Assembly (NCBI RefSeq): GCF_022899355.1
Contig: NZ_JALJCK010000022.1
Span: forward strand, 1 to 64,000
From: Shinella yambaruensis
Lineage (GTDB): Bacteria; Pseudomonadota; Alphaproteobacteria; Rhizobiales; Rhizobiaceae
Direction of reading: 5' to 3'
Length of the DNA: 64,000 bases
The position numbers were made by a program, and so were the translations under genes. Numbering within the stretch: the first letter of the stretch is position 1; the number at the start of each line of letters is the position of its first letter. Shown piece after piece: positions 21,206 through 42,597 of this stretch. The notes below the pieces were generated by a model. It made no database searches, was not told the origin of the DNA, and saw only the letters and a list, made by a program, of their open reading frames with translations.

Positions 21206-21886
21206 TCAGGCGAGGATCGTCTTCGCGATCGCCGAAGCTGCGCCAACATGGGCGCGGCAGGCTGCCGCGGCGGCGGCGGGATCGTTGGCGTCGATCGCTT
21301 TGAAGATTTCCCGGATTTGCGAGGGGCCGGACGCCATGCGATTCGATGTCGAGAGCGTCATGACGCGCAGCCGCGAGATGCGGCTGTTCAGGCGGCTGAC
21401 GATTTCCCAGGCGATGTTGTGGCCGCCGGCCTCGAAGACGACCTTGTAGAACTCCGTGGTCGCATCGAGCACGCCGACGGGAGAGTTTTGCTTCGATGTC
21501 TCTTCCAGTTCGTTCATCGCTTTCCGCAGCCGCGCCTTGACGTCGGGGCCGGCAACGCGCGCGCAATCGGCGACCGCGGTTGATTCCAGTGCGGCCCGGA
21601 TCTCGTAGATCTGCCGCGCATCATCCCAATCGAGCTTTGCGACGATCGGTCCTTGCTTGGCGAGCATCTCGACGAGCCCTTCCGCCTCGAGATGGCGAAT
21701 GACCTCGCGGATGACGGAGCGCGAGACGCCGAGCTGGTCGCAGAGCGTGCGTTCGACCAGCCGCTCGCCCGGCTCGAAGAGGCCGCCGATGATGGCGCGA
21801 CGCATGCGGTCGAGCGCAATCTCCCGGAGCGTTGTCGGCGGGGTTTCGATGCGGAGGGCCGCGAGGCTTTCGGCGTTCTTTGTCAT
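21206..21886 (-). CDS. GntR-family regulator, FCD (FadR) subfamily
   Basis: A 226-residue regulator: N-terminal GntR winged helix (residues about 15-80, GERLVERTLCDQLGVSRSVI) and an all-helical FCD effector domain. The ATG at 21886 is chosen; the frame stays open upstream to 22189 but that part overlaps the divergent gene antisense. It faces cassette A and a palindromic TGGTATACCA lies between the two starts, so it is the likely repressor of that operon. Confidence 0.92.
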   Translation of the reverse strand: MTKNAESLAALRIETPPTTLREIALDRMRRAIIGGLFEPGERLVERTLCDQLGVSRSVIREVIRHLEAEGLVEMLAKQGPIVAKLDWDDARQIYEIRAALESTAVADCARVAGPDVKARLRKAMNELEETSKQNSPVGVLDATTEFYKVVFEAGGHNIAWEIVSRLNSRISRLRVMTLSTSNRMASGPSQIREIFKAIDANDPAAAAAACRAHVGAASAIAKTILA

Positions 21887-21925
21887 GCTGGACTCATAGC
21901 CGCAAAAAAAGTTCGAGACAATGGC

Positions 21926-21955
21926 TTGACACTTTGTCTTATGGTATACCAAAAT
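21926..21955 (+). promoter_or_regulatory. cassette A promoter with GntR-type operator
   Basis: TTGACA (21926-21931) and CAAAAT (21950-21955) are spaced by 18 bp. The perfect palindrome TGGTATACCA (21942-21951) lies between them and touches the -10 box. TGGTATACCA is the form expected for FadR/FCD-type GntR regulators, so binding would block RNA polymerase. Confidence 0.6.
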
Positions 21956-21986
21956 ATGAGCAGATGAAAGACAGGAGGATGCCTCG

Positions 21987-22586
21987 GTGACGCTGGTCCG
22001 GAAAACGCTGCTGCATGTGGAGACGACGTTCGTGGAGGGCGGCAGAAAGGCCGCACGGCCGCTCAAGCTGATCGCGGCCGTGGCCGTCGTGAAAAACCCA
22101 TGGGCTGGCCGCGGTTTCGTCGAGGACCTGAAACCGGAAATCCATGCCGTCGCTCCGGTCCTTGGCGAGCTCCTGACCGGGATGATCATCGATGAGGCCG
22201 GCTCCGGCGAAGCCGTCGAAGCCTATGGCAAGTCGGCGGTCGTCGGCCTAGACGGCGAGGTAGAGCATGCGTCCGCCCTTATCCACACGCTTCGTTTCGG
22301 CAACCACTACCGCAGCGCCGTGGGCGCAAAGTCCTATCTCGCCTTCTGCAACACGCGCGGCCCGGCGAATGCGCCGATCATGATCCCGCTGATGGACAAG
22401 AACGACGAGGGCCGCCGGTCGCACTACCTCACCATTCAGTGCGCGGTCCCGGATGCGCCGGCCGCCGACGAGATCGTGCTGGCGCTTGGCGCTTCCATTG
22501 GCGGTCGCCCGCATCACCGCATCGGTGACCGGTACCAGGACCTCAAGGAGCTGGGCCACGATGTTGCAAATCCTGCCGCGGTCTAA
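21987..22586 (+). CDS. 'amino acid synthesis' family protein (DUF1185/PF06684)
   Basis: A 199-residue soluble protein of the DUF1185 family. Recognisable stretches are KNPWAGRGF, IDEAGSGEAVEAYGKSAVVG and EHASALIHTLRFGN. No catalytic role is established for the family despite its name. The GTG start has a strong AGGAGGA upstream. A paralogue is encoded at 31057-31644 beside cassette B, which argues that the protein is a functional part of both cassettes. It overlaps the next gene by 26 bp. Confidence 0.88.
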   Translation: MTLVRKTLLHVETTFVEGGRKAARPLKLIAAVAVVKNPWAGRGFVEDLKPEIHAVAPVLGELLTGMIIDEAGSGEAVEAYGKSAVVGLDGEVEHASALIHTLRFGNHYRSAVGAKSYLAFCNTRGPANAPIMIPLMDKNDEGRRSHYLTIQCAVPDAPAADEIVLALGASIGGRPHHRIGDRYQDLKELGHDVANPAAV

Positions 22587-23352
22587 GACGCCTTCGGGCG
22601 CGGCCTATCTGGAGCGGGGCGCGGGGGATGAGGCCCTCGTCCTTATCCACGGCGTCGGCATGCGCATCGAGGCCTGGGGGCCGCAGATCGAGCGGCTGGC
22701 GGAAGGATATCGCGTGATCGCGGTCGATCTTCCCGGTCACGGCCTTTCGAATGCGCTCGATGGCGCGCCGGACCTGCACCGTTATGTGGCATGGTTCCAG
22801 CGCTTCCTGGAGGAGGTCGATGCCGGGCCGGTCAATGTCGCGGGCCATTCGATGGGCGCACTGATCGCAAACGGCATCGTGGCGACGGCGCCCGGGAGGG
22901 TGCGGCGGGTTGCGCTGTTGAATGGCGTCTACCGGCGGGGGCCGGACGCGCGGAAGGCTGTGGAGGCGCGGGCGCGGGAAATCGGGTCCGGCGACTTCGA
23001 CCGGGTGGCGCCGCTGGCCCGCTGGTTTTCCGAGGAGGAGGCGGGAACCGACGCCTACATCCTGGTGCGCGACCTGCTGCAGGCGGTGGACCCGTCAGGT
23101 TATGCCGCGGCCTACGCGGCCTTTGCCGGCGGGGATACGGTCTATGCGGATTGCTGGCCCGGGGTCGAATGCCCGGCGCTCTTTCTGACGGGGGACGGAG
23201 ACCTGAATTCGACCGCCGGCATGACGCGGGACATGGCCGCTGCCGCCCGCCGGGGAAGGGCCGTGGTGATCGAGGGACACCGTCACATGGTGAACCTGAC
23301 GGCGCCCGACGCGGTGAACCGTGCGCTTGCGGACTGGCTGGCGACGAGCTGA
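22561..23352 (+). CDS. alpha/beta-hydrolase (cassette A)
   Basis: A 263-residue alpha/beta-hydrolase. Oxyanion motif LIHGVG (28-33), nucleophile GHSMG with Ser97, acid in TGDGDLNST, base in GHRHMVNL. No signal peptide. AAGGAG precedes the ATG at 22561, inside the end of the DUF1185 gene. Its counterpart in cassette B (37351-38163) also has its nucleophile at residue 97. It may hydrolyse an ester, lactone, enol-lactone or amide made by the neighbouring monooxygenase and dehydrogenase. Substrate unknown. Confidence 0.88.
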   Translation: MLQILPRSKTPSGAAYLERGAGDEALVLIHGVGMRIEAWGPQIERLAEGYRVIAVDLPGHGLSNALDGAPDLHRYVAWFQRFLEEVDAGPVNVAGHSMGALIANGIVATAPGRVRRVALLNGVYRRGPDARKAVEARAREIGSGDFDRVAPLARWFSEEEAGTDAYILVRDLLQAVDPSGYAAAYAAFAGGDTVYADCWPGVECPALFLTGDGDLNSTAGMTRDMAAAARRGRAVVIEGHRHMVNLTAPDAVNRALADWLATS

Positions 23353-23386
23353 AACATTCGGTCCTCACGGACCATGGGAGGAGACC

Positions 23387-24307
23387 ATGATACCAGACGC
23401 GAGAGCCTTGCGCGACGCCTTCGGCGCATTCCTGACCGGTGTCACCGTCGTCACGACCGTAGACGATGCGGGCGCGCCGATCGGGTTCACCGCCAACAGC
23501 TTCACCAGCGTTTCGCTCGATCCGCCGCTGCTCCTCGTCTGCCTGGCGAAGACCTCGCGCAATTACGCGACGCTGACCGGCGCGAAGGGGTTTGGCGTGA
23601 ACATCCTCTCGGAAGGGCAGAAGGAGGTTTCCAACACCTTCGCCCGCCCCGTCGAGGACCGTTTCGCGGCCGTCGACTGGAGGCCGGGACCGCACGGTTC
23701 GCCCGTCTTCGCCGATGTTGCCGCCTGGTTCGATTGCGCGACGCATGAGGTCGTCGATGCCGGCGATCATGTGATCCTGATCGGCCGGGTCGAGGGTTTC
23801 GACAACAGCGGCAAGACCGGCCTCGGCTATGCGCGCGGCGGGTATTTCACGCCGGCGCTCGCTGAAAAGAGCCTGCTCGCCTCGGCCGAAAGCCTGCTTC
23901 TCGGCGCAGTCGCCGTGCGGAACGGTGAACTCCTCCTGATCGATGACGGCAAGGGGGGCTGGACGCTGCCGTTCGTCGAAAAGGCCGAGGGTGACGGCAT
24001 GGAGGCCCTGGAGCATCATATCGCGCAGACGGTGGGGCTGACGCTCACGACCGGTCTTCTCTACTCCGTCTACGAGGACACGAAAACCGGCCAGCAGCAT
24101 GTCGTCTACCGCGCCGAACTGGGAGACGGGACGGCAAGGAGCGGCCGCTTCTTTCCCGTCCAGGCTCCGCCGGTGGCCGAGATCGCCGACGGTGCGGTGC
24201 GCGACATCGTCACGCGTTTTGCGCAGGAAAGCACGCTCGGCAATTTCGGCGTCTATTTCGGAAATCAGGAAAAGGGCCGCGTGCACGCCGTGGCTGCAAA
24301 GGGGTAA
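23387..24307 (+). CDS. flavin reductase with C-terminal Nudix-like domain (cassette A)
   Basis: A 306-residue protein. Residues about 1-160 are a flavin reductase-like domain (PF01613), with FTANSFTSVSLDPPLLLVC at 34-52 as signature. Residues about 168-300 are an extra domain that looks Nudix-like: ELLLIDDGKGGWTLP, then a helix where the Nudix box should be, but the box reads ALEHHIAQTVGL and lacks the REXXEE acidic residues, so it is probably not catalytic. It should supply reduced flavin to the adjacent luciferase-like monooxygenase. The paralogue at 33740-34732 has the same architecture. The ATG at 23387 has GGGAGGAG upstream. Confidence 0.85.
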   Translation: MIPDARALRDAFGAFLTGVTVVTTVDDAGAPIGFTANSFTSVSLDPPLLLVCLAKTSRNYATLTGAKGFGVNILSEGQKEVSNTFARPVEDRFAAVDWRPGPHGSPVFADVAAWFDCATHEVVDAGDHVILIGRVEGFDNSGKTGLGYARGGYFTPALAEKSLLASAESLLLGAVAVRNGELLLIDDGKGGWTLPFVEKAEGDGMEALEHHIAQTVGLTLTTGLLYSVYEDTKTGQQHVVYRAELGDGTARSGRFFPVQAPPVAEIADGAVRDIVTRFAQESTLGNFGVYFGNQEKGRVHAVAAKG

Positions 24308-24310
24308 GCC

Positions 24311-25348
24311 ATGAAATTCTCCCTGTTCGTTCACATGGAACGGCTGGATGCCAGGCAGAACCATCAGGACCTCTACGAGGAATTCATCGCGCTGTGCGAG
24401 ATCGCGGACAAGGGCGGCATGCATGCCATCTGGACCGGCGAGCACCACGGCATGGATTTCACGATCGCGCCGAACCCCTTCGTCAACATCGCAGACCTTG
24501 CGCGGCGCACGAAGAATGTGCGGCTCGGCACGGGCACGGTGATCGCGCCGTTCTGGCATCCGATCAAGCTTGCCGGCGAAGCGGCGATGACCGACATCAT
24601 CGCCGGCGGCCGGCTCGACGTGGGCATCGCGCGCGGCGCCTACAGCTTCGAATACGAACGGCTCCTGCCGGGCCTCGATGCCTGGGGCGCCGGCCAGCGG
24701 ATGCGCGAGCTGATCCCGGCCGTCAAGGGTCTCTGGGCGGGCGATTATGCCCATGACGGCGAGTTCTGGAAATTCCCGAAGACGACCTCCGCGCCGAAAC
24801 CGGTGCAGCAGCCGCACCCGCCGATCTGGGTCGCGGCGCGCGATCCCAACAGCCACGAATTCGCCGTCGCCAACGGCTGCAACGTGCAGTGCACGCCGCT
24901 TGCCAATGGCGAGGCGGAAATCGCCAGCCTCATGGAGCGCTTCGATGCGGCCTGCGAGAAGGCGACGGGCGTGCCGCGCCCGAAGATCATGCTGCTGCTG
25001 CACACCTATGTCGGCTCCGACGAGGCCGATATCGCGCAGGCCGCGAAGGAAGTGAGTACCTACTACAATTACTTCTTCGCCTGGTTCAAGAACGAGCGGC
25101 CGATCAGCCAGGGTCTCATCGAGCGCCTTTCCGGGGAGGAGCTTGCCGCCAATCCAAACCTCACGCCGCAGAAGATGCGCGAGAACATGCCGATCGGCAC
25201 GGCGGACGAGGTGATCAAGCGGCTGAAGGTCTACGAGGATCTCGGCTACGACGAATATTCGTTCTGGATCGACACGGGCATGAGCTTTGCGCGCAAGAAG
25301 GCGTCGCTCGAGCGCTTCATCGCCGATGTCATGCCGGCATTCCGGTGA
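24311..25348 (+). CDS. luciferase-like flavin-dependent monooxygenase (cassette A)
   Basis: A 345-residue LLM-class (PF00296) TIM-barrel monooxygenase. Characteristic stretches are WTGEHHGMDF, RLGTGTVIAPFWHPIKLAGE, GRLDVGIARGAY and PPIWVAARDPNSHEFA. Such enzymes use FMNH2 delivered by a reductase, here most likely the preceding gene 3 bp upstream, to oxidise or cleave C-C, C-N or C-S bonds. The following aldehyde dehydrogenase suggests that the reaction yields an aldehyde. Substrate unknown. Confidence 0.9.
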   Translation: MKFSLFVHMERLDARQNHQDLYEEFIALCEIADKGGMHAIWTGEHHGMDFTIAPNPFVNIADLARRTKNVRLGTGTVIAPFWHPIKLAGEAAMTDIIAGGRLDVGIARGAYSFEYERLLPGLDAWGAGQRMRELIPAVKGLWAGDYAHDGEFWKFPKTTSAPKPVQQPHPPIWVAARDPNSHEFAVANGCNVQCTPLANGEAEIASLMERFDAACEKATGVPRPKIMLLLHTYVGSDEADIAQAAKEVSTYYNYFFAWFKNERPISQGLIERLSGEELAANPNLTPQKMRENMPIGTADEVIKRLKVYEDLGYDEYSFWIDTGMSFARKKASLERFIADVMPAFR

Positions 25349-25355
25349 GGCCGCC

Positions 25356-26819
25356 ATGCAGAGCTTCCAGCAATATATAGACGGAACCTTCGAAGACGGC
25401 GCGGCGCGGTTCGACTCGATCGATCCGGCAACCGGTTCGGTCTGGGCGGCGATGCCCGAAGCGCGCGAAGACGATGTCGATCGTGCCGTGAAGGCCGCGC
25501 AGCGCGCACTCTGGAACGGCGCCTGGCCGGCCATGACCGCGACGGCCCGCGGCAAGCTGCTCTACCGGCTTGCCGATCTCGTCGAGGCCAATGCCAGGAC
25601 GCTCGCCGAACTGGAGACCCGCGACACCGGCAAGATCATCCGCGAGACCTCCGCGCAGATCGCCTATGTCGCGGATTACTACCGCTATTATGCCGGCCTT
25701 GCCGACAAGATCGAGGGCGCGACGCTTGCCATCGACAAGGCGGACATGGATGTCTGGACGCGGCGCGAGCCGATCGGCGTCGTGGCGGCGGTCGTGCCGT
25801 GGAACAGCCAGCTTTTCCTCTCGGCCGTCAAGATCGGCCCGGCCCTCGCCGCCGGCTGTACGCTGGTCGTCAAGGCCTCGGAGGAGGCCCCCGCGCCGCT
25901 TCTCGAATTCGCGCGGCTCGTGCACGAGGCGGGCTTTCCGGCGGGTGTCGTCAATATCCTGACGGGCTTCGGCCCGGCCTGCGGCAGCGCGCTGACCCGT
26001 CACCCCGGCGTCGATCACATCGCCTTCACCGGCGGTCCGGCGACGGCGGCGGCCGTGGTGCGCAATTCCGCGGAAAACCTTGCCACGACCTCGCTCGAAC
26101 TCGGCGGCAAGTCGCCCTTCATCGTCTTTGCCGATGCGGATCTCGACAGCGCGGCCAACGCGCAGGTCGCGGGGATTTTTGCCGCGACGGGCCAGAGCTG
26201 CGTTGCCGGTTCGCGCCTCATCGTCGAGGCTTCGGTGAAGGACCGGTTCCTCGCCATCCTGAAGGCGAAGGCGGAAGCCATCCGCATCGGCGCGCCGCTC
26301 GACATGGCGACGGAAGTCGGGCCGCTCTGCACGCGCCGGCAGCGCGACCATATTGCGGCGGTCGTCGCCGTCTCGCTGGAGGCGGGTGCGAAACTTGTGA
26401 CCGGCGGCCGGGCAGGAGAAGGCGGCGGCTTCTACTATGTCCCCACCATCCTCGACTGCGACGGCGTCTCCGCCGCCTCGGTGGAAACCGAGCTCTTCGG
26501 GCCGGTGCTTTCCGTGCTTTCCTTCACGAGCGAGGAGGAGGCTGTGCGGCTTGCGAACGCCACGCCCTACGGGCTCGCCTCCGGCGTGTTCACGCGCGAC
26601 CTTGCCCGCGCCCACCGCATGATCAAGCGCATCCGCGCCGGCATCGTCTGGGTGAACACCTATCGCGCGGTCTCGCCGATCGCGCCCTTCGGCGGATATG
26701 GCCAGTCGGGGCAGGGGCGCGAGGGCGGGCTTGCCGCCGCGCTCGACTATACGAAGACGAAAACCGTGTGGCTCCGGACGTCCGACGATCCGATCCCCGA
26801 TCCCTTCGTGATGCGGTGA
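25356..26819 (+). CDS. aldehyde dehydrogenase family protein (cassette A)
   Basis: A 487-residue NAD(P)-dependent aldehyde dehydrogenase. General base Glu248 is in LELGGKSP and the nucleophile Cys282 is in GQSCVAGS; VVPWNSQLF and FTGGPAT are the cofactor-binding motifs. The ATG at 25356 lies 5 bp after the LLM stop. It probably oxidises the aldehyde formed by the monooxygenase. Confidence 0.93.
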   Translation: MQSFQQYIDGTFEDGAARFDSIDPATGSVWAAMPEAREDDVDRAVKAAQRALWNGAWPAMTATARGKLLYRLADLVEANARTLAELETRDTGKIIRETSAQIAYVADYYRYYAGLADKIEGATLAIDKADMDVWTRREPIGVVAAVVPWNSQLFLSAVKIGPALAAGCTLVVKASEEAPAPLLEFARLVHEAGFPAGVVNILTGFGPACGSALTRHPGVDHIAFTGGPATAAAVVRNSAENLATTSLELGGKSPFIVFADADLDSAANAQVAGIFAATGQSCVAGSRLIVEASVKDRFLAILKAKAEAIRIGAPLDMATEVGPLCTRRQRDHIAAVVAVSLEAGAKLVTGGRAGEGGGFYYVPTILDCDGVSAASVETELFGPVLSVLSFTSEEEAVRLANATPYGLASGVFTRDLARAHRMIKRIRAGIVWVNTYRAVSPIAPFGGYGQSGQGREGGLAAALDYTKTKTVWLRTSDDPIPDPFVMR

Positions 26820-26824
26820 CGGCG

Positions 26825-27154
26825 ATGTTTGTCGAAATCCGCACCTACAGGCTGAAGAACGGCGGCATTCCCGAATACCTCAAGGTGGTCGGCGAAACCG
26901 GCATCGCGATCCAGAAGAAGCATCTCGGCAATCTCGTCGGTTATTTCTCCTCGGAGATCGGACCGGTCAACGAGATCGTCCACATCTGGAGCTTTGCGAG
27001 CCTGGACGACCGGCAGGCGCGCCGCGCGCGCCTTGCCGCCGATCCGGACTGGCAGGCCTTCCTGCCGAAGATCCGCGACCTGATCGTCACCGCGGACAAC
27101 AAGATCATGACACCGGCCGCCTTTTCGCCGCTTGGCGGCAGCGCGCCGGCCTGA
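26825..27154 (+). CDS. NIPSNAP family protein
   Basis: A 109-residue protein starting MFVEIRTYRLKNGGIPEYLK, the typical opening of NIPSNAP (PF07978) ferredoxin-like-fold proteins. The segment FSSEIGPVNEIVHIWSFASL also fits. It starts 3 bp after the aldehyde dehydrogenase stop. Bacterial NIPSNAP proteins often sit in catabolic operons, but no biochemical role is settled. It has no counterpart in cassette B. Confidence 0.85.
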   Translation: MFVEIRTYRLKNGGIPEYLKVVGETGIAIQKKHLGNLVGYFSSEIGPVNEIVHIWSFASLDDRQARRARLAADPDWQAFLPKIRDLIVTADNKIMTPAAFSPLGGSAPA

Positions 27155-27187
27155 CGACGATATCAACCGAACCGGGAGGATGGAAAC

Positions 27188-28198
27188 ATGAAAAGCAGAC
27201 TGGTAATCGCGCTTCTTTCGACGACGCTCTTGCTTGCGGGAAACGCCGCGGCTGAGGACCTGGTCTTCACGAGCTGGGGCGGGACCACGCAGGACGCCCA
27301 GAAGACCTACTGGGCCGATGCCTTCACCGCGGAGAGCAACATCGCCGTCACGCAGGACGGCCCGACCGACTACGGCAAGATCAAGGCCATGGTGGAAGCC
27401 GGCAACGTGACCTGGGACGTCGTGGACGTCGAGGGCGACTACGCGGTCCAGGCCGGCAATGCGGGCCTTCTCGAAAAGCTCGACTTCTCCGTCATCGACA
27501 AGACCAAGCTCGATCCGCGCTTCGTGACGGACTATTCCGTCGGCAGCTTCTACTATTCCTTCGTGATCGGCTGCAACAAGGACGCGGTCGAGGCCTGCCC
27601 GAAGACTTGGGCGGATCTGTTCGACACCCAGAAGTTTCCCGGCAAGCGCACCTTCTACAAGTGGTCCGCGCCGGGCGTGATCGAGGCGGCGCTGCTGGCC
27701 GACGGCGTTGCCGCCGACAAGCTCTATCCGCTCGATCTCGACCGCGCCTTCAGGAAGCTCGACACGATCAAGGCGGATATCGTCTGGTGGGACAGCGGCG
27801 CCCAGTCGCAGCAGCTTCTCGCCTCCGCCGAGGCGCCGTTCGGCTCGTTCTGGAACGGCCGCCTGACGGCACTCGCCGAAACCGGCGTCACCGTCGAGAC
27901 GTCCTGGACGAACAACATCACGGCAGCCGATTCCCTGGTCGTCCCGAAGGGCGCGAAGAACAAGGATGCGGCGATGAAGTTCATCGCGCAGGCCACCAGC
28001 GATCAGGCCCAGGCGCAGTTCGCCACCGCGACCGGCTATGCGCCGATCAACCTCGATGCCAGCACCCTGATGGACGCGGAACTGCGCAGCTCGCTGCCGG
28101 ACATGCAGGCGGATACCCAGGTCAACGCCGACATGGGCTACTGGGCCGAGCATCGCGACGAGATCGGCACCCGCTGGTACGCCTGGCAGGCGAAGTAA
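27188..28198 (+). CDS. ABC transporter substrate-binding protein, spermidine/putrescine type
   Basis: A 336-residue PotD/PotF-like receptor with a Sec signal peptide (cleavage after GNAAA). The mature protein begins EDLVFTSWGGTTQDAQKTYW, the usual start of family 1-type polyamine receptors, and has DVVDVEGDYAVQAG and PCKTWADLF-like (CPKTWADLFD) stretches. GGGAGGATGG precedes the ATG. It is the receptor of the cassette A importer, probably for a cationic or nitrogenous organic compound. Confidence 0.9.
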   Translation: MKSRLVIALLSTTLLLAGNAAAEDLVFTSWGGTTQDAQKTYWADAFTAESNIAVTQDGPTDYGKIKAMVEAGNVTWDVVDVEGDYAVQAGNAGLLEKLDFSVIDKTKLDPRFVTDYSVGSFYYSFVIGCNKDAVEACPKTWADLFDTQKFPGKRTFYKWSAPGVIEAALLADGVAADKLYPLDLDRAFRKLDTIKADIVWWDSGAQSQQLLASAEAPFGSFWNGRLTALAETGVTVETSWTNNITAADSLVVPKGAKNKDAAMKFIAQATSDQAQAQFATATGYAPINLDASTLMDAELRSSLPDMQADTQVNADMGYWAEHRDEIGTRWYAWQAK

Positions 28199-28218
28199 GG
28201 CCATCTCCCGAGACGATG

Positions 28219-28242: not shown

Positions 28243-28267
28243 TTCCCAATCCACTGGATGATCGATC

Positions 28268-29119
28268 ATGGCTGTTACGGTAGCGACAGGCGCCGTCAAA
28301 ACGAAGCGCGAGGGCACGTTCGGCTATCTCCTGCCGGCCTTGCTGCTCATTGCCTTCTTCTTCATCGTGCCCGTGCTCATGCTGCTCGTGCGCAGCGTGC
28401 TGGAGCCGGAGCCCGGTTTGCAGAACTATGCGGTTCTCCTCGGCTCGACGACCTATCTGCGCGTCTTCCTGAACACGTTCATGGTGGCCGGCGTCGTAAC
28501 GTTGGTCTCGATCGTCATCGGCTATCCGGTCGCCTGGCTGCTCGCCATCATGCCGGAACGGTGGTCGCGCATCGTGCTGGCCATCATCATCCTGTCGATG
28601 TGGACGAACCTGCTTGCCCGCACCTATGCCTGGATGGTGCTGCTGCAGCGTACCGGCGTCGTCAACAAGACGCTGATGGGCCTTGGCCTCATCGACCAGC
28701 CGCTGGCGCTCGTCAACAATCTCGTCGGCGTCACCATCGGCATGACCTATATCATGCTGCCCTTCGTCATCCTGCCGCTGATGGGCGTGATCCGTGCCAT
28801 CGATCCGGCGATCCTGCGCGCCGCGGCGCTGTGCGGCGCCGGCCGGCTGCAATGCTTCTGGCGCGTGCTGCTGCCGCTGTCGCTGCCGGGCATCGCCGCC
28901 GGCGCGCTGATGGTCTTCGTCATGTCGCTCGGCTATTTCGTGACGCCCGCCCTCCTCGGCGGCACCGCCAACATGATGCTCGCCGAGCTCGTCGCGCAGT
29001 TCGTGCAGTCGCTGGTGAACTGGGGCATGGGAGGCGCGGCCGCATTGGTGCTGCTCGTCGTCACCCTCGCGCTCTACGCGGTCCAGCTGCGTTATTTCAA
29101 TCCGGCCCGGGGGACGTGA
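28268..29119 (+). CDS. ABC transporter permease, PotB type
   Basis: A 283-residue six-helix permease. The first helix reads LLPALLLIAFFFIVPVLMLL and the coupling motif is AAALCGAGRLQCFWRVLLPL. Two codons separate it from the next permease gene. It forms the membrane channel of the cassette A importer with the next gene. Confidence 0.92.
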   Translation: MAVTVATGAVKTKREGTFGYLLPALLLIAFFFIVPVLMLLVRSVLEPEPGLQNYAVLLGSTTYLRVFLNTFMVAGVVTLVSIVIGYPVAWLLAIMPERWSRIVLAIIILSMWTNLLARTYAWMVLLQRTGVVNKTLMGLGLIDQPLALVNNLVGVTIGMTYIMLPFVILPLMGVIRAIDPAILRAAALCGAGRLQCFWRVLLPLSLPGIAAGALMVFVMSLGYFVTPALLGGTANMMLAELVAQFVQSLVNWGMGGAAALVLLVVTLALYAVQLRYFNPARGT

Positions 29120-29120
29120 C

Positions 29121-34732: not shown

Positions 34733-34733
34733 C

Positions 34734-36248
34734 ATGAAGACGACCGTCAGCACCATCGAAGGTTCCCGCCAGCAGCTGTTTATCGGCGGCGAGTTCGTCG
34801 CGCCGAAGAACGGCGCCTACATCCGGAGCTTCGATCCGACGACCGGCGAGCCCTGGTACGAATTCGCCGAGGCCGACGCCGATGATGTCGAGGCCGCCGT
34901 CGGTGCGGCCACCGCCGCGTTTCGCGATCCCGCCTGGCGCCGCATGACGCAGACCGATCGCGGTGCGCTGGTCCGCCGCCTCGCCGAATTGGTCCGCGCC
35001 AATGCCGATGCGCTCGCCGAGATCGAGACGCGCGACAACGGCAAGCTCCTGAAAGAGACCCGCGCCCAGATGCGCGCCATGCCGGACAGCTACCACTATT
35101 TCGCCGGCATGGCCGACAAGCTGCAGGGCGACACGATCCCGATCAACCGGCTCGACACGCTGAACCTCAACCTGCGTGAACCGCTCGGCGTGGTCGGCAT
35201 GATCACGCCGTGGAATTCGCCGCTGATGCTGCTCACCGGCACGCTCGCGCCGTGCCTTGCCATCGGCAACACCGTCGTCATCAAGCCTTCCGAGCATGCC
35301 ACGGCCTCGACGCTGGCGCTCGCCGAACTCATCCATGAAGCGGGCTTCCCGGCCGGCGTCGTCAACGTGGTGACCGGTACTGGCGGTAGCGCCGGCGAGG
35401 CGCTGACGCGTCATCCCGGCGTCGCCAAATACGTCTTCACCGGCAGTACCGCGACCGGCCGCCGCATCGCCGGCAATGCCGCTGAAAACCTCGTGCCCTG
35501 CTCGATGGAGCTTGGCGGCAAGTCGCCCCATGTCGTCTTCGGCGATGTCGATATCGAGCATGCGGTGAACGGCGTCGTCTCCGGCGTCTTTGCCGCCGCG
35601 GGCCAGACCTGCGTGGCCGGCTCGCGCTGCTTCATCGAGGCCGGTGTCTATGATCGGTTCATCGAGGCGCTCGTGGCGCGGACCCGGCGCATCCGCGTCG
35701 GCCTGCCGACCGTCGACGACACCGATATCGGCCCGCTGGCACTCGCCGACCAGCTTTCCAAGGTGGAATCCTACGTCGCCTCGGGCGTCAAGGAAGGCGC
35801 GAAGGTCGCCGTCGGCGGCGGCCGGCCGCAGCAGGCGGAGCTTGCGCCGGGCGGCTGGTATTTCGAGCCGACCGTCATGGTGGATGCCGGGAACGACATG
35901 GCCTTCATGCGCGACGAACTCTTCGGGCCGGTCGTGGGCGTCATGCCCTTCCGTAACGAGGAGGAAATGATCGAGCTCGCCAACGACACGCGCTACGGCC
36001 TCGCCTCCGGCATCTGGACGAAGGACATCGACCGGGCGCTGCGCTTCGCTAGCCGCATCGATGCGGGCACAGTCTGGATCAACACCTACCGTTCCGCCTC
36101 CTTCATGTCCGCGAACGGCGGCTTCAAGGAAAGCGGCTACGGCCGGCGTGGCGGCTTCGAGGTCATGTACGAGTTCTCGCGGCTGAAGAACGTCATCATC
36201 GACTATTCCGGCGCCATGCAGGACCCCTTCGTCATCCGCCTCAAATAA
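34734..36248 (+). CDS. aldehyde dehydrogenase family protein (cassette B)
   Basis: A 504-residue aldehyde dehydrogenase with Glu259 in MELGGKSP and nucleophile Cys293 in GQTCVAGS; ITPWNSPLML and FTGSTATG are the cofactor motifs. It starts 1 bp after the reductase stop. It is clearly homologous to the cassette A enzyme and ends with the same type of tail (DPFVIRLK; DPFVMR in A), supporting descent from a common cassette. Confidence 0.93.
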   Translation: MKTTVSTIEGSRQQLFIGGEFVAPKNGAYIRSFDPTTGEPWYEFAEADADDVEAAVGAATAAFRDPAWRRMTQTDRGALVRRLAELVRANADALAEIETRDNGKLLKETRAQMRAMPDSYHYFAGMADKLQGDTIPINRLDTLNLNLREPLGVVGMITPWNSPLMLLTGTLAPCLAIGNTVVIKPSEHATASTLALAELIHEAGFPAGVVNVVTGTGGSAGEALTRHPGVAKYVFTGSTATGRRIAGNAAENLVPCSMELGGKSPHVVFGDVDIEHAVNGVVSGVFAAAGQTCVAGSRCFIEAGVYDRFIEALVARTRRIRVGLPTVDDTDIGPLALADQLSKVESYVASGVKEGAKVAVGGGRPQQAELAPGGWYFEPTVMVDAGNDMAFMRDELFGPVVGVMPFRNEEEMIELANDTRYGLASGIWTKDIDRALRFASRIDAGTVWINTYRSASFMSANGGFKESGYGRRGGFEVMYEFSRLKNVIIDYSGAMQDPFVIRLK

Positions 36249-36271
36249 CAAGCATCGAAAGGCAGAATCCC

Positions 36272-37348
36272 ATGAAGTTCGCAGTCTCGCTCACGATGGA
36301 ACGTTTTTCGCCCGAGGTGCCGATGGCCACGGTGAAGAACAATCTGCTGACGCTGGCCCGCATGGCGGATGAGGGCGGTTTCGAGATGCTCTGGACGGCC
36401 GAGCACCACACGCTCGAATGCACCATCTCGCCGAACCCGTTCCAGACGCTCGTCTGGCTGGCGCAGCATACCGAGAACATCCGGCTGGGCACCTCGACGC
36501 TCGTCGCGCCCTACTGGAACCCGATCCGGCTTGCCGGCGAATCGGCGCTCTGCGACCACCTGACGAACGGCCGCCTCGAATTCGGCATCGCCCGCGGTTC
36601 CTATCAGTACGAGTTCGACCGCATGGCCGGCGGCATGCCGCAGCAGGAGGGCGTGGCCTACATGAAGGAGCTGGTGCCCGCGGTGAAGAAGCTGTGGGCC
36701 GGCGACTATGCCCATGAGGGCCATTACTGGAAGTTCCCGGTCACCGCCGCCGTGCCGAAGCCGCTGCAGGCGCCGCATCCGCGCATCTGGGTCGCCGCGC
36801 GCGATCCCGGCACGTTCGACTGGGCGATCGCCAACGGCGCCTCCATCCTCTCGACGCCGCTTTCCGCCCCAGCCGCGGAAATCCAGGTGCTTGCCGACAA
36901 GTTCGAGAAGGCCGTGGCCGACCATCCGGAAGTCCCGCGTCCGCGTTTCATGATGCAGCGCCGCACCTGCGTCTACGACCGGCCGGACGGCTGGGAGCGG
37001 GCCGTGCGGCACAGCATGGACTACGGCCGCGCCTTCGAGAACCTGATGCAGAACATCGGCACCGTGAAGGACGGTTTTCCCGAGGCCGTGCCCTACGAAG
37101 CGGTGAAGGGCAAGGAGAACTACAATCCGGACAATATCCGCATGAACCTGATGTTCGGCACGCCGGACGAGGTGATCGAAAAGCTGATGGTCTATGAAGC
37201 CGCGGGCGTCGACCAGTATTGTCTCGGCCTGACCTTCAACCTGCCCTTCGAATTGCAGAAGCGTTCGATCGAGCTCTTCGTCAAGGAAGTCATGCCCGTC
37301 TTCGCCGCGCGCGAGAGCGAGCGCAAACGGGCCGCCGTGGGACACTGA
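36272..37348 (+). CDS. luciferase-like flavin-dependent monooxygenase (cassette B)
   Basis: A 358-residue LLM-class monooxygenase, paralogous to 24311-25348. Shared positions include MKF...MER at the N-terminus, WTAEHHTLEC (WTGEHHGMDF in A), IRLGTSTLVAPYWNPIRLAG and GRLEFGIARGSYQYEFDR. It would use FMNH2 from the cassette B reductase. Substrate unknown; sequence differences from copy A suggest a related but different substrate. Confidence 0.9.
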   Translation: MKFAVSLTMERFSPEVPMATVKNNLLTLARMADEGGFEMLWTAEHHTLECTISPNPFQTLVWLAQHTENIRLGTSTLVAPYWNPIRLAGESALCDHLTNGRLEFGIARGSYQYEFDRMAGGMPQQEGVAYMKELVPAVKKLWAGDYAHEGHYWKFPVTAAVPKPLQAPHPRIWVAARDPGTFDWAIANGASILSTPLSAPAAEIQVLADKFEKAVADHPEVPRPRFMMQRRTCVYDRPDGWERAVRHSMDYGRAFENLMQNIGTVKDGFPEAVPYEAVKGKENYNPDNIRMNLMFGTPDEVIEKLMVYEAAGVDQYCLGLTFNLPFELQKRSIELFVKEVMPVFAARESERKRAAVGH

Positions 37349-37350
37349 TC

Positions 37351-38163
37351 ATGGACGACACGCAAGAGCACAAGGTCGGCGAAGTCACGCTCAACTATCG
37401 CATCGACGGCGATGGCGGCGAGCCGCTCGTCTGCATCCACGGGGTCGGCTCCTATCTGGAGGCCTGGTCGGGCGTTGTGGAGCGGTTGAAGGACCGCTTC
37501 ACCATCCTCACCTTCGACCTCCGGGGGCACGGCAAGTCGAGCCGCGTCAAGGGCCGCTACGAGATCGACGATTTCGTGACCGAGACGCTGGCGCTCGCCG
37601 ACAAGGTCGGGTTTTCGACCTTCAACCTCGCCGGCTTTTCGCTCGGCGGCCTGATCGCCCAGCGCCTCGCGCTGACCCGTCTTCCGCGTCTGCGCCGGCT
37701 CGTGCTCCTCTCCACCGTCGCTGGCCGCACGCCGCAAGAGCGCGAGCAGGTGCTGTCCCGGCTCGCCGCGCTTCAGGCGGGAACCCCGGCCGATCATCAC
37801 AATGCCTCGCTCTCGCGCTGGCTTACGGAGGCGTTTCAGGAGAAGAACCCCGACGTCATCACCTGGCTCAGAGCGCGCGATGCGGAAAACGACCCCGACT
37901 GCTACGCATCGGCCTATCGGGTCTTGGCCGAAACGGATTTTGGCGGTTTTCTCGACCAGATCCGCTGCCCGACGCTGATCGCCACCGGCGAGGATGATGT
38001 CGGCTCAAACCCGCGCATGGCCCGCTACATGCACGAGCGCATCCCGGGATCGCGGCTCGTCCTCTTTCCGGGCCTGCGCCATTCCATCCTCATCGAAGCG
38101 CCCGACGTCGTCGCCGATGCCATGGGCGATTTCCTGACAGGTACGGAGGCGGCCCATGGATGA
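37351..38163 (+). CDS. alpha/beta-hydrolase, enol-lactonase-like (cassette B)
   Basis: A 270-residue alpha/beta-hydrolase. Oxyanion motif CIHGVG (28-33), nucleophile GFSLGG with Ser97, acid in ATGEDDVGS, base in GLRHSILIEAP. It overlaps the PcaC-like gene by 8 bp. The PcaD/PcaC-like pairing recalls 3-oxoadipate enol-lactone hydrolase and carboxymuconolactone decarboxylase, so a lactone substrate is a reasonable guess, not proven. Confidence 0.87.
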   Translation: MDDTQEHKVGEVTLNYRIDGDGGEPLVCIHGVGSYLEAWSGVVERLKDRFTILTFDLRGHGKSSRVKGRYEIDDFVTETLALADKVGFSTFNLAGFSLGGLIAQRLALTRLPRLRRLVLLSTVAGRTPQEREQVLSRLAALQAGTPADHHNASLSRWLTEAFQEKNPDVITWLRARDAENDPDCYASAYRVLAETDFGGFLDQIRCPTLIATGEDDVGSNPRMARYMHERIPGSRLVLFPGLRHSILIEAPDVVADAMGDFLTGTEAAHG

Positions 38164-38545
38164 GGCTTTGCGGAAAAAGGGCGAGGGCGTGCGCCGGCAT
38201 GTGCTCGGCGAGGACTATGTCGACCGCGCGATGGGCGCGGCAGACGCCTTTTCGAAGCCCTTGCAGGATATGCTCAATGAATATTGCTGGGGCATGGCCT
38301 GGACGGATGACGGTCTGGACCTCAGGCAGCGCAGCCTTCTCAACCTCGGCATGCTGGCGGCAAGCAACCGCATGCATGAATTCGGCCTGCATTTCCGCGG
38401 CGCGGTCCGCAACGGCCTGACGGACAGGGAGCTTCAGGCGGCGCTTGTCCAGATCGCGGTCTATTGCGGTGTGCCGGCCGGCGTGGAGGCCTTTCGCGTC
38501 GCCCGCGCGGTCCGCGCCGAGATGGCGGGGGAGGGCGCGATTTGA
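38156..38545 (+). CDS. carboxymuconolactone decarboxylase family protein (PcaC-like)
   Basis: A 129-residue CMD-family protein. RRHVLGEDYVDRA near the N-terminus and LRQRSLLNLGMLAASNRMHE, then AVYCGVPAGVEAFR, match PcaC-type decarboxylases; there is no AhpD-like CxxC pair. It overlaps the hydrolase gene by 8 bp. The 148-bp gap to the SBP gene shows no clear element. Confidence 0.85.
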   Translation: MDEALRKKGEGVRRHVLGEDYVDRAMGAADAFSKPLQDMLNEYCWGMAWTDDGLDLRQRSLLNLGMLAASNRMHEFGLHFRGAVRNGLTDRELQAALVQIAVYCGVPAGVEAFRVARAVRAEMAGEGAI

Positions 38546-38693
38546 TTTCCGTCATTTCGGCGGAGCCTTGCGGCGCATGCTGCTTGGGAACGCCGGAAGA
38601 CGCAGGAGGCGACGGGCCTCAAAATGGCACACAACGGCGGGGAGAGGAACCTGCGCCGTCAAGGAAACGACAACGGACAGAGGGAACAAAGGC

Positions 38694-39527
38694 ATGATCA
38701 GAACCACGATATTTGCGGCGCTCACCGCCTCTCTCGCCCTCTCGCTGGCGGCCGCGCCGGCGCAGGCCGGCGAAGTGCTCGACCGCGTGCTCGCGGCCAA
38801 GAACCTGAAGGTCGCGACCGACGCCAACTGGGCGCCGCAGTCCTTCGTCAACGACAACAACGAGATGGACGGTTTCGATATCGACGTCGCCAAGGAGATC
38901 GGCAAACATCTCGGCGTTTCCGTCGAGTTCGTGACGCCGGGCTGGGACATCATCACCGCCGGCAAGTGGCAGGGCCGCTGGGACATGCATGTCGGCTCGA
39001 TGACGCCCACCAAGGCGCGCGCGGCGCTCTTCGACTTCCCCGCCGTCTACTATTACACGCCCGCGGCCGTCGCCGTGCACAAGGACAGCAAGGCCGAAAA
39101 GCTCGCCGATCTCGAAGGCAAGCGCGTCGGCGTGACGGCGACATCGACCTTTGAGGCCTATGCCAACCAGGACCTGACGCTGGACGCCGCCGGCGCGCCG
39201 GCCTTCACCTACGAATTCAAGCCGGGCGAGGTGAAATCCTACGCCAATTCGACGACCGCCTTCGACGACCTGCGCCTGGGCGACGGCACGCGCCTCGACG
39301 CCGTCGTCTCCTCGCTGCCGAGCATCCTCGACGCCGAAAAGGCCGGATACCCGATCAAGCAGCTCGGCAAGCCGGTCTTCTTCGAGCCGCTGGCGGTCGC
39401 CGTCGAGCATGGCGATGCGGAACTGAGCGCGAAGATCGCCGAAGCCGTCAAGGCCATGCAGGCGGACGGCACGCTGAGCAAGCTTTCCGTCAAGTGGTAC
39501 GGTGTCGACTACACGGTCACGCAGTAA
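38694..39527 (+). CDS. ABC transporter substrate-binding protein, polar amino acid type (SBP_bac_3)
   Basis: A 277-residue family 3 receptor with signal peptide (cleavage near PAQA). Mature sequence has LKVATDANWAPQSFVNDNNE and MDGFDIDVAKEIGKHLGV, the classic start of amino acid receptors, and RVGVTATSTFEAYANQDL. The ATG at 38694 gives the normal signal-peptide start; the longer open frame is not supported. Receptor of the cassette B importer; ligand probably a small amino-acid-like or nitrogenous compound. Confidence 0.9.
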   Translation: MIRTTIFAALTASLALSLAAAPAQAGEVLDRVLAAKNLKVATDANWAPQSFVNDNNEMDGFDIDVAKEIGKHLGVSVEFVTPGWDIITAGKWQGRWDMHVGSMTPTKARAALFDFPAVYYYTPAAVAVHKDSKAEKLADLEGKRVGVTATSTFEAYANQDLTLDAAGAPAFTYEFKPGEVKSYANSTTAFDDLRLGDGTRLDAVVSSLPSILDAEKAGYPIKQLGKPVFFEPLAVAVEHGDAELSAKIAEAVKAMQADGTLSKLSVKWYGVDYTVTQ

Positions 39528-39541
39528 CATCCCACCGGTGC

Positions 39542-39566
39542 GTGCGGCCCGGCCTGCGGGCCGCAC
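39542..39566 (+). other. intercistronic stem-loop after amino-acid-type SBP gene
   Basis: GTGCGGCCCG and CGGGCCGCAC form a perfect 10-bp stem with loop GCCTG, 14 bp after the SBP stop. No U-tract follows. The permease Shine-Dalgarno (AAGGAGCGG) lies just after it. Confidence 0.6.
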
Positions 39567-39585
39567 CAATCTTCAAGGAGCGGAG

Positions 39586-40560
39586 ATGCTGTATCCCGAT
39601 ACCGTCGAATCGGAAGTCCTCGTCCACAAGCCCTGGTTCGTCGCCACCCTTTTCGTGTTGGTCTTCGCCGTCTTTCTCGCCTTCGACCTCACGGGAACGT
39701 CGATGGGCGAGCTGATGCGCCCGGTGATCGGCGCGCCGGCCGAAAGCGGCTTCTACGGCCGGTTCGCCATCGGCCTCGTCATCGCCGTGCTCTTCTGCCT
39801 GAACATCGTGCTGATCGGCTTCGCCTCTCTGAGGGTGCAGGTGACGATCGTCTGGTTCGAGTTGCTCCTGCTCTTCCTCGCCTTCTTCACGACCTTCAAT
39901 CTCAGCCTGCCGTTCATCGCGGAAAAGCTGCCCTTCATGATCACGCAGGGCCTGTTCACGACGATCTACGTCTCGGCCATCTCGATTGCGATCGCCTCCA
40001 TCATCGCCATTCTCGGCGCGGTGGCCAAGCTTTCGACGAACGGCTTCGCCTACGCGATCGCCAGCTTCTACACCTCCTTCTTCCGCGGCCTGCCGCTTCT
40101 GATGCAGGTCTATCTCATCTATCTCGGCCTGCCGCAGCTCGGTTTCATCATCGATGCAGTACCGGCCGGCATTCTCGCGCTCTCGCTGTGCTACGGCGCC
40201 TATATGACGGAGATCTTCCGCTCGGGCATCCAGAGCATCGACCGCGGCCAGTGGGAGGCCTCGCGCTCCATCGGTTTCGGCTTCGGGCTTACCATGCGCA
40301 AGATCATCCTGCCGCAGGCGTTGCCCGTCATCATTCCGCCGACGGGCAACCAATTCATCTCGATGCTGAAGGACAGTTCGCTCGTCTCGGTCATCGGCGT
40401 CTGGGAGCTGATGTTCCTGGCGCGCACGCTCGGCCAGAAGACCTTCCAGCACATGGAGATGCTGATCTCGGCCGCCATGCTCTACTGGGTCGTGTCGATC
40501 TGCCTCGAACTCATCCAGTCCCGCATCGAACGCCACTACGCCAGGAGCAAAGTGCGATGA
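39586..40560 (+). CDS. ABC transporter permease, polar amino acid type (HisM/GlnP family)
   Basis: A 324-residue permease, longer than the usual ~220 because about 100 residues with two extra helices precede the core. The permease domain contains [20 protein letters not shown] and the [20 protein letters not shown] motif, both diagnostic of the HisMQ family, and [20 protein letters not shown]. It is the only permease in the operon, so it should work as a homodimer. Confidence 0.92.
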
Positions 40561-41297
40561 GCGAGAAGATCATCGACGTCCGCAACGTCTCCAAATGGTA
40601 CGGCGCCTTCCGCGTGCTGACCGATGTGAACCTGACGGTGGAGAAGGGCGAACGCATCGTCATCTGCGGTCCATCCGGCTCCGGCAAATCGACGCTGATC
40701 CGCTGCTTCAACCGGCTGGAGGCGCACCAGCAGGGCGACATCGTCGTCAACGGCATCACGCTGCACGACAGGATGCGCGACGTCGCCGAGGTGCGCAAGA
40801 ATGTCGGCATGGTGTTCCAGCACTTCAATCTCTTCCCGCACATGACCGTGCTGATGAACTGCATGGTCGGGCCGATGTGGATCAAGGGCGTGCCGGAAGC
40901 GGAGGCCCGCAAGACCGCGCTGAAGTTCCTCGAACGTGTCCGCATTCCCGAGCAGGCGAACAAATACCCCGTGCAGCTCTCCGGCGGCCAGCAGCAGCGC
41001 GTGGCGATCGCCCGTTCGCTCTGCATGCAGCCGGCGGTCATGCTGTTCGACGAGCCGACCTCGGCGCTCGACCCGGAGATGGTGTCCGAGGTGCTGGAGA
41101 CGATGACGAGCCTTGCCCGCGAGGGCATGACAATGGTCTGCGTCACCCACGAAATGGCCTTCGCCCGCGCGGTGGCCGACCGGGTGATCTTCATGAATGC
41201 CGGCCAGATCATCGAACAGGGCAAGCCGGATGATTTCTTCGGCAATCCGCAACATGAGCGAACCAAGCTGTTCCTCAGCCAGATTCTGAAGCACTAG
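40557..41297 (+). CDS. ABC transporter ATP-binding protein, polar amino acid type (GlnQ/HisP family)
   Basis: A 246-residue ATPase. Walker A GPSGSGKS, signature LSGGQQQR, Walker [14 protein letters not shown]-loop VTHEMAFA. It starts in an ATGA overlap with the permease gene. Last gene of the cassette B transport set; the convergent M20 gene ends only 19 bp away. Confidence 0.94.
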
Positions 41298-41316
41298 GCA
41301 ATTCCAGAGACCGTCG

Positions 41317-42597
41317 TCAGCTTTCCTGCACGCCGCACCAGTCGGCCGCAAAGAGCGCCAGCGTCTTGGTGACACGGCGCAGCGAGGAGAGGCTGACCCG
41401 CTCGTCGATGCCGTGGATGTTTTCCGCGATGGGACCATAGACGAGTGACGGGATGTTGCCGTGCACGGCGAAAATGGTGGCATCCAGGTAACAGGCCATG
41501 ACATAGGACCTGAGGTCGGCGCCCGCATGGGCGGCGGCGTGCGCGGTGCGCAGGCTTGTCTCCGCGTCGGTACCTTCGGGCAGCTCGTAGCCGGCCTGCA
41601 CGACCCCGACCCATGTGAGCGTGACCAGGTTTTCTCCGGCGAAAGCCGGATCTTCGGCCGCGATCCGCTCGATGAATGCTTCGACTTCGGCCGTGCGCAT
41701 CCTCGGGTCTTCGCCGGGGTAAAAGCCGATCCGGCCCTCTGCGACGCAATCGCTCGGGATGGAGGCGATCCAGTCGCCGCCGGTGATCGTGCCGATCGTC
41801 AGGGCGACGGGGTTGGGAAGATCCTCGAACAGAGACTTGCCGATCCGCTCGGCGATCCATTCGGCTTCCAGCCGCCTCAAGTGCCCGATCAGGCGGATCA
41901 TCAGGTCGATGGCGCTCTGGCCCGATTCCGGTTCACGCGGATGGGCCGGACGCCCCTTCGTCTCGAGCCGGAACTTGATCACGCCGGCATTGGCGCGCAC
42001 GAGCTGCTCGTCGGTCGGTTCCGGGCTGACGATCGCATCGGCGGTGAAGCCTTCGGCGAAAAGCGTCGCCGCGCCATTGCCGGTGATTTCCTCCTCCACG
42101 ACGGACTGCACCTGAACGTCGCCACGAAGTGAAAACCCGGCTGCCGCGATGGCGTCGAGCGCGAAGATGGAGGCAACGAGGCCGGCCTTCATGTCGCCGG
42201 CGCCGCGCCCGTAGAGCCAGTCGCCATCCCGGCGAGGCTCGAAAGGCGGGGCGGTCCAGCGGTGGGGGCTTCCCGCCGGCACCACGTCGACATGCGAGTT
42301 GAAAGCGAGCGAGCGGCCGCCGGTGCCCGCCCCGGCCTTCCGGCCGACGACGTTCCAGCTTTCCGCATAGTCGACCGTCGCCGGCGAGAATGCCGGGTGA
42401 CGGCCGATTTGGGAGGCATTCGTGCGCACGCGGTCGACCGCGAAACCGCGTTGCCTCAGCGCTGCCGCGAGGAAATCCTGCGCCGCGGCTTCCTCGTTGC
42501 GCAGCGATTTGAACCGGACCAGCGCTTCCAGGAACGCAACCTGATCGTCGAAAAGCCGATCGACGGCGCTGAGGATTCGGTCGTTGATGGATGACAT
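41317..42597 (-). CDS. M20 family metallopeptidase (ArgE/DapE type)
   Basis: A 426-residue M20 peptidase/deacylase. Metal-binding motifs are NSHVDVVPAGSP (His and Asp), GRGAGDMKAG (bridging Asp) and QSVVEEEITGNG (Glu pair). The ATG at 42597 is preferred over an upstream TTG. It is convergent with cassette B and divergent from the rhodanese gene. Related M20 enzymes deacylate N-acetylated S-alkyl cysteines in sulfur salvage; its place at the edge of the sulfur region makes that one option, N-acyl amino acid hydrolysis for cassette B another. Confidence 0.9.
   Translation of the reverse strand: MSSINDRILSAVDRLFDDQVAFLEALVRFKSLRNEEAAAQDFLAAALRQRGFAVDRVRTNASQIGRHPAFSPATVDYAESWNVVGRKAGAGTGGRSLAFNSHVDVVPAGSPHRWTAPPFEPRRDGDWLYGRGAGDMKAGLVASIFALDAIAAAGFSLRGDVQVQSVVEEEITGNGAATLFAEGFTADAIVSPEPTDEQLVRANAGVIKFRLETKGRPAHPREPESGQSAIDLMIRLIGHLRRLEAEWIAERIGKSLFEDLPNPVALTIGTITGGDWIASIPSDCVAEGRIGFYPGEDPRMRTAEVEAFIERIAAEDPAFAGENLVTLTWVGVVQAGYELPEGTDAETSLRTAHAAAHAGADLRSYVMACYLDATIFAVHGNIPSLVYGPIAENIHGIDERVSLSSLRRVTKTLALFAADWCGVQES

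Follow-up and report, generated by a model that had tools for sequence, protein, structure and literature searches.

The opening of an N-heterocycle by a luciferase-like monooxygenase (LLM) together with a flavin reductase is known from the pyridine (Pyr) and pyrimidine (Rut) pathways. A trigonelline (tgn) gene cluster and its pathway have reportedly been described in Acinetobacter baylyi ADP1 (Perchat et al., PNAS, 2018), and an operon for homarine, named homABCDER, is said to have appeared in Nat Microbiol in 2026. The DNA considered here is a window of 64,000 nucleotides from Shinella yambaruensis (assembly GCF_022899355.1, contig NZ_JALJCK010000022.1, positions 1-64,000 of the forward strand), whose genome comprises 6.87 Mb in 34 contigs; the stretch under study, 21,206-42,597, carries two catabolic cassettes, A and B. 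Taken as a whole, our comparisons make it likely that cassette A is the trigonelline operon and that cassette B, an old paralogue, applies this chemistry to a different pyridinium betaine. In the published work, the trigonelline ring is opened by the TgnA/TgnB oxygenase system (PMC8269262), and TgnF, a homologue of the DUF1185-type protein HcdD, stimulates the TgnE-dependent oxidation of succinic semialdehyde in A. baylyi ADP1 (PMC7913881).

The cluster of A. baylyi DSM 14961 (L015; the type strain and not ADP1 was compared) is collinear with cassette A in tblastn searches, from the GntR regulator through the DUF1185 protein (75% identity), the alpha/beta-hydrolase (52%), the flavin reductase (45%), the LLM (72%) and the aldehyde dehydrogenase (ALDH; 71%), so that five families, their order and the regulator family are common to both. 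The two differ in their accessory genes: A has a PotD-type ATP-binding cassette (ABC) importer and a NIPSNAP gene, whereas A. baylyi carries downstream of the ALDH an NCS1-type permease, a succinic semialdehyde dehydrogenase (SSADH) of its own that scores above the TIGR01780 cut-off (682.6 against 646.35), and a gene for a PcaC-like protein of the carboxymuconolactone-decarboxylase (CMD) family. On pSymA of Sinorhizobium meliloti (L003), the cluster around SMa0793 is likewise collinear with A (LLM 82% by tblastn) and shares its cassette genes, the NIPSNAP gene and the PotD-type importer; the regulator gene is oriented differently and an additional ALDH lies downstream. Trigonelline as sole carbon source supports growth of wild-type S. 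meliloti and not of the pSymA-deleted strain, according to one report (PMC4207669), and another (PMC12489286) cites a paper whose title names pSym as the site of genes essential to the catabolism of trigonelline. The LLMs of the window's cassette A, A. baylyi and S. meliloti fall into one clade of the LLM tree with a support of 100. Cassette A thus has an orthologous LLM, the order of reductase, ALDH and hydrolase, and the DUF1185 (TgnF) protein of the tgn kind. It has no SSADH, which speaks against the assignment; four SSADHs over the cut-off are encoded elsewhere in the genome, and no more than 28 of 105 A-type places are accompanied by one, so that its location in the cluster is not a defining trait. 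These 105 places are those with an LLM at least 60% identical to that of A, most of them coming from one similarity-ranked scan with an Acinetobacter LLM (best 80 of 545), no random sample. On the strength of the collinearity, the shared LLM clade and the genomic SSADHs, we regard cassette A as very probably a member of the tgn kind. The preliminary description of this DNA had seen two related oxygenolytic pathways for nitrogenous compounds, which holds, and had taken pyridine breakdown as their parallel; it missed that A is the described tgn set, a closer parallel than the pyridine one. Cassette A is already known, and only B is left without assignment.

The same description had listed five families for both cassettes (a DUF1185 protein, PF06684; an alpha/beta-hydrolase; a tailed flavin reductase; an LLM; an ALDH), and Pfam, on which the family calls on window proteins rest (curated score cut-offs being those of NCBIfam/TIGR models), finds them at the places given. 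It was also right about the regulators, an FCD-GntR type in A and a PucR type with GAF, GGDEF_2 and HTH_30 domains in B, and about the types of the importers, PotD/PotA-like in A and SBP_bac_3 in B, whereas the polyamine specificity ascribed to the importer of A is unsupported because the NCBIfam PotD model gives 66.6 bits against a cut-off of 582. The genome has just two DUF1185 genes, one per cassette. Neither LLM has close kin in the genome apart from the LLM of the other cassette (41%, E 5.8e-93; next match 7.4e-9). The same holds for the reductases, which share 44% identity over residues 4-302 of 306 (next match 1.6e-15, in the reductase domain only), and the hydrolases are best paralogues by a narrow margin (35% against 32% for the next). 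The counts of linkage, identity covariation, LLM positions and neighbours were made on loci L003-L091, L156-L175 and L205-L246, with L315 added for the neighbours; initial 4-kb loci were exchanged for longer stretches in some of the matches only. All five families lie within 7 kb at 109 of 153 LLM places, in line with the recurrent linkage expected beforehand. The Shinella plasmid NZ_OZ000531 (L004) is a twin of the window, in which all 21 genes of both cassettes follow one another as they do here, with protein identities of 98-100%; it enters the linkage count, where the closeness of its two DUF1185 genes led to a B-type DUF1185 being wrongly ascribed to its A set, and was excluded from the other three. 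Within types, the identities of the families covary (Mantel r 0.59-0.85 for 96 A loci and 0.82-0.97 for 12 B loci, L216 being treated as B although it falls outside the B clade of the tree), a covariation to which shared organismal descent contributes; in 19 of 20 tests no permutation out of 999 reached the observed value, and in the remaining test one did. Identities within and between types overlap at 1 of 108 loci for the hydrolase, at 12 each for the ALDH and DUF1185 (probably on account of L216) and at 102 for the reductase; for the LLM, with 38-47% between A and B, there is no overlap. The LLM and hydrolase therefore follow type, and DUF1185 and the ALDH mostly do, while the reductases are so diverged that identity alone fails to sort them.

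Given this linkage and covariation, an independent assembly of the families without recurrent linkage is rejected, except for the weak pairing of the ALDHs. A recent tandem duplication is rejected as well, as it had been from the start: the LLMs share only 41% identity, gene order differs and the cassettes occur separately, one genome (G489) having B only and two (G429, G611) A only. When both LLMs are found on one replicon they can be far apart, about 0.6 Mb by the shorter way in Ensifer adhaerens NZ_CP098809 and about 0.95 Mb in Sinorhizobium RAC02. The cassettes are old paralogous modules that were brought together.

Cassette B is a separate conserved lineage, distinct from A, with neither an LLM of the A/TgnA clade nor the GntR regulator and gene order of tgn. 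The LLM tree (62 rows) resolves a B clade (Shimodaira-Hasegawa-like approximate likelihood-ratio test 97, 14 rows), the A clade (100, 22 rows) and a third one, C (99, 19 rows). A comparison of LLM sequences (106 of A, 15 of B and 19 of C type) shows 23 positions at which A and B each exceed 90% conservation and yet differ from one another: residue 231 is His in all 106 A sequences and in 95% of the 19 C sequences, and Arg in 15/15 B sequences, while Phe184 of A is replaced by Trp in B, Trp258 by Leu and Trp319 by Gly (93% of B). The 15 B-type loci lie outside the window and its twin, and 13 of them are in the B clade; L005 (88%) and L315 (76%) were put in the B type by LLM identity. The block keeps the order DUF1185, PucR, reductase, ALDH, LLM, hydrolase, CMD (in some loci) and importer on plasmids of Rhizobium etli, Agrobacterium rubi, R. 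leguminosarum, Mesorhizobium loti, Shinella and Thalassospira, with a variant form in A. fabrum and a representative in a relative outside the class (L295/L315). PucR is present within 9 kb at 15/15 B-type loci (34-84% identity), and GntR lies near 91 of the 105 A-type places. The importer binding protein within 9 kb is of the polar-amino-acid type at eight B-type loci and of the ProX quaternary-amine type at the other seven; ProX is near none of the 105 A-type and 12 C-type places. NCBIfam confirms ProX in six of the seven, and the seventh, L211, has ProW and ProV. The alpha/beta-hydrolase gave no match in L212 and L213, which have an isochorismatase-family hydrolase in its place, and L211 has both. 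The CMD gene accompanies 9/15 B-type loci and 24/105 A-type places, and in R. etli CFN 42 the block adjoins ectoine transport genes. No characterised member of the lineage turned up in literature searches that did not name the B genes and did not cover most subscription papers.

The route encoded by A, as known from the published pathway, would start with the import of trigonelline (N-methylnicotinate), whose pyridinium ring would be opened by oxygenation through the LLM with reduced flavin from the reductase; the ALDH would oxidise the resulting aldehyde or hydroxylactone, the alpha/beta-hydrolase would cleave the N-methylformamide, giving methylamine, formate, CO2 and succinic semialdehyde, and an SSADH from elsewhere in the genome would complete the route with the help of the DUF1185 protein. 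By analogy, the best reading of B is that some pyridinium betaine, but not trigonelline, has its ring opened in a flavin-dependent reaction, followed by aldehyde oxidation and deformylation: its LLM and reductase would cleave the ring next to the nitrogen with reduced flavin, the ALDH would oxidise the aldehyde, the hydrolase would take off a formyl (or acyl) group, and a beta-oxo acid might be decarboxylated by the CMD-family protein. The ProX neighbours, the isochorismatase-family hydrolases and the ectoine transport genes suggest a quaternary, betaine-like substrate whose ring-opening product has an amide, since an isochorismatase-family hydrolase, as in L212 and L213, is expected if the task is amide cleavage.

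Several observations weigh against this picture. The reactions and substrate of B are all inferred. The ALDHs of A and B do not form a pair within the genome: compared with that of A, two other ALDHs reach 50% and 47% and that of B 48%, so they may have been recruited separately. The A-type reductases are very divergent, with identities within the type down to 34% and the overlap with the A-B range at 102 of 108 loci noted above, and six of the 96 complete A loci have a reductase closer to that of B. The LLM tree is a quick one, with one support value and a long-branched outgroup, and L216 and L217, labelled B beforehand, stand outside its B clade. As for ProX, two of its loci (L214, L215) have a B-clade LLM but lack the remaining four enzyme families in the surrounding 7 kb and give weak PucR matches (36 and 34%), cassette B of the window itself has an importer of the amino-acid type, and ProX next to B could be a neighbour and not a partner. 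Finally, six of the 15 B-type loci gave no CMD gene. An SSADH beside B was considered as a sign of a succinic-semialdehyde end product and set aside as weak: it occurs at three of 15 loci, two from R. etli, which adjoin amino-acid/ectoine transport genes, and one from A. rubi, and the one of these enzymes that was scored, in L206, is under the SSADH cut-off (599.5 against 646.35).

Which betaine would be the substrate of B then becomes the question. Homarine (N-methylpicolinate) comes to mind, being the 2-carboxy isomer of trigonelline and itself a betaine, in which case B would already be known from the 2026 operon; the chemistry of that operon is probably of the same type on the isomer. The same ring opening, oxidation and deformylation applied to homarine should yield N-methyl-iminoglutarate, in line with the participation of the N-methylglutamate dehydrogenase Mgd in homarine catabolism stated in PMC13390433, and both ProX near 7/15 B-type loci and the presence of B on a plasmid of Thalassospira marina would fit. 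However, all but one (Thalassospira) of the best 40 B matches come from rhizobia and close kin, the CMD gene should suit a 3-carboxy ring better than a 2-carboxy one, and LLM clade C could equally be the homarine set, with a thiamine pyrophosphate (TPP) enzyme at 4/12 and a LysR regulator at 6/12 of its loci; we thus find this identity rather doubtful. Unless B is that operon, it may be new. Going further, one could propose that B encodes a so far undescribed oxygenolytic route, with a pyridinium betaine distinct from both trigonelline and homarine as its substrate, that at least three LLM clades (A, B and C) are tuned to different N-substituted pyridines, and that the DUF1185 protein opens a cyclic hydroxylactone for the ALDH in all of them; this we entertain tentatively, as a somewhat doubtful extension.

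The five shared families would also suit a second, redundant trigonelline pathway made of isozymes under another inducer, and so would G489 with B and without A; but the LLMs form separate clades whose identities do not overlap, they differ by residue switches such as that from His231 to Arg231, and both the window genome and its Shinella twin retain the two cassettes, which makes redundancy highly improbable. An attack on an unrelated nitrogen compound (a lactam, a pyrimidine or an amide), as in the Rut or pyridine clusters, draws on weak RutF and RutB-like matches and on the many substrates that LLM-reductase pairs serve. Yet the RutF model scores 87.8 on the B reductase against a cut-off of 254.75 and is far under it on that of A too, the nearest kin of the B LLM are those of trigonelline and C type (in a tree without RutA), and ProX points elsewhere, so we consider it quite unlikely. 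With ring opening of a non-trigonelline pyridinium betaine as the preferred reading, cassette B is narrowed to a short list of testable substrates, and cassette A gains a named function, trigonelline use, a trait of the legume rhizosphere. Trigonelline and homarine are osmolytes of plants and plankton, as PMC8269262 has it, and the existence of multiple families of ring-opening cassettes for such pyridinium betaines bears on carbon and nitrogen turnover.

Cassette A begins with the FCD-domain GntR regulator gene on the reverse strand (21206-21886); all its other genes are on the forward strand, tgn letters being assigned by family, and several gene starts here and in B were taken over from the annotated twin L004 (that of the GntR gene among them). 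The DUF1185/AA_synth protein (21987-22586, PF06684 E 1.2e-68) is tgnF-like, the alpha/beta-hydrolase (22561-23352; Pfam, start from the twin) is tgnD-like and presumably a formamide/enamide hydrolase, the tailed flavin reductase (23387-24307, PF01613) is tgnB-like, the LLM (24311-25348, PF00296) is tgnA-like and the ALDH (25356-26819, PF00171) is tgnC-like. The small NIPSNAP-family gene that follows (26825-27154; annotated in the twin and in R. leguminosarum L010, and found by tblastn) is a further member of the cassette and lies near 18 of the 105 A-type places. The importer consists of a PotD-like solute-binding protein (27188-28198, PF13416), two permeases (28268-29119 and 29121-29921, both by Pfam) and an ATPase (29918-30994; PF00005 with TOBE_2, start from the twin).

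In cassette B, the gene for the DUF1185/AA_synth protein (31057-31644, PF06684 E 2.5e-63) is on the reverse strand, and the forward strand carries the GAF-GGDEF_2-HTH_30 regulator of PucR type (31811-33613), the flavin reductase with a tail of the A-like kind (33740-34732), the ALDH (34734-36248), the LLM (36272-37348) and the PcaD-like alpha/beta-hydrolase (37351-38163), all called by Pfam, the starts of the DUF1185, regulator and hydrolase genes being those of the twin. The gene for a PcaC-like CMD-family protein (38156-38545; PF02627 E 4e-20) is a further member of this cassette; its product is under the TIGR02425 cut-off (126.2 against 155.7 bits). The importer, with starts from the twin, comprises a solute-binding protein of family 3 (SBP_bac_3, 38694-39527; Pfam), a permease (39586-40560) and an ATPase (40557-41297), the latter two called by Pfam and NCBIfam. 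An M20 deacylase gene (41317-42597) adjoins B in the twin also; its membership was rejected, as it is found at 0 of 15 other B-type loci.

The tail of the reductases had been called Nudix-like. The predicted order of strands and helices in the tail of the A reductase model, b-b-b-a-b-b-b-a (mean predicted local distance difference test, pLDDT, 81; predicted template modelling score 0.57), resembles Nudix in that order alone; a Pfam scan of 16 reductases at E<=1 brought up no Nudix match (HMMER filters dropping most matches above about 0.1), and no Nudix protein is among the Foldseek matches listed for this model (50 of 1272), which leaves the label unconfirmed. The pSymA reductase is identical to PDB 3rh7, which is S. 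meliloti SMa0793, and both reductases of the window match 3rh7 through the tail, that of B over residues 12-314 of 330 (E 4.1e-55). The model of the B LLM (mean pLDDT 85) has its nearest matches in bacterial luciferases and in the monooxygenase RslO1.

The DUF1185 family was compared at 40 loci, hand-picked for genus spread from 85 places of a phylum-level search, with several known LLM-cassette loci omitted. Each of the 12 loci at least 55% identical to the window proteins is accompanied, within about 8 kb, by an ALDH and a cassette-type hydrolase, and ten of them by an LLM too, against an ALDH at 3 of 28 more distant PF06684 loci. It is tempting to hypothesize that the near subfamily opens the hydroxylactone (pseudo-acid) form of gamma-oxo acids for the ALDH, which would explain this difference in ALDH linkage; attempts to see the related HcdD stimulate its own pathway failed, according to PMC7913881. 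Two loci (L280, L282) have cassettes of DUF1185, hydrolase, ALDH, reductase, CMD and GntR in which a close LLM was not found, and another oxygenase may replace it. At eight others (L273, L274, L277, L279, L283, L284, L288, L289), tandem pairs of distant DUF1185 genes have no LLM or ALDH found nearby and probably serve a function other than that of the tgn-linked subfamily.

Clade C is a candidate homarine set; four of its loci (L161, L160, L231, L159) have an A-like ALDH, a hydrolase, a TPP enzyme and, in some, DUF1185, with LysR in three of the four. On S. meliloti pSymA, the PotD-type importer of the tgn cluster (L003, 14949-18727) is apparently SMa0799-803, locus tags being assigned by gene order. 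PMC7268258 gives SMa0799-803 as potABCD2, a putrescine system, among the transporters essential for symbiosis in transposon sequencing (TnSeq); these genes may instead be the trigonelline importer, because the reductase of the cluster is SMa0793 and a PotD-type importer follows.

A few single loci are worth mentioning. The cassette of L166 is a hybrid that combines an A-like ALDH, NIPSNAP gene and PotD-type importer with a PucR regulator, a reductase and an LLM closer to those of B or C, which shows module exchange. Two low-GC genomes (0.30 and 0.32) of 1.4 and 2.2 Mb (L156, L157) have A-clade LLMs (59-60%) with a distant hydrolase, the former with ALDH and DUF1185 in addition; a cassette-type reductase was not found in these stretches. 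In Leisingera sp. NJS201 (L007, 8893-10352), the A-type ALDH matches in two overlapping pieces, absent from the gene table, and is perhaps broken by a frameshift. An A-type LLM (72%) is on the 3.97 Mb Acinetobacter baumannii record NZ_CP064203, kept in a plasmid collection and probably a chromosome. Upstream of cassette A, window positions 11815-21110 (from 7505-16800 of the twin) carry, in the annotation of the twin, an ABC importer, a gamma-glutamyltransferase, an alpha/beta-hydrolase and an M20 peptidase, probably for the use of gamma-glutamyl compounds.

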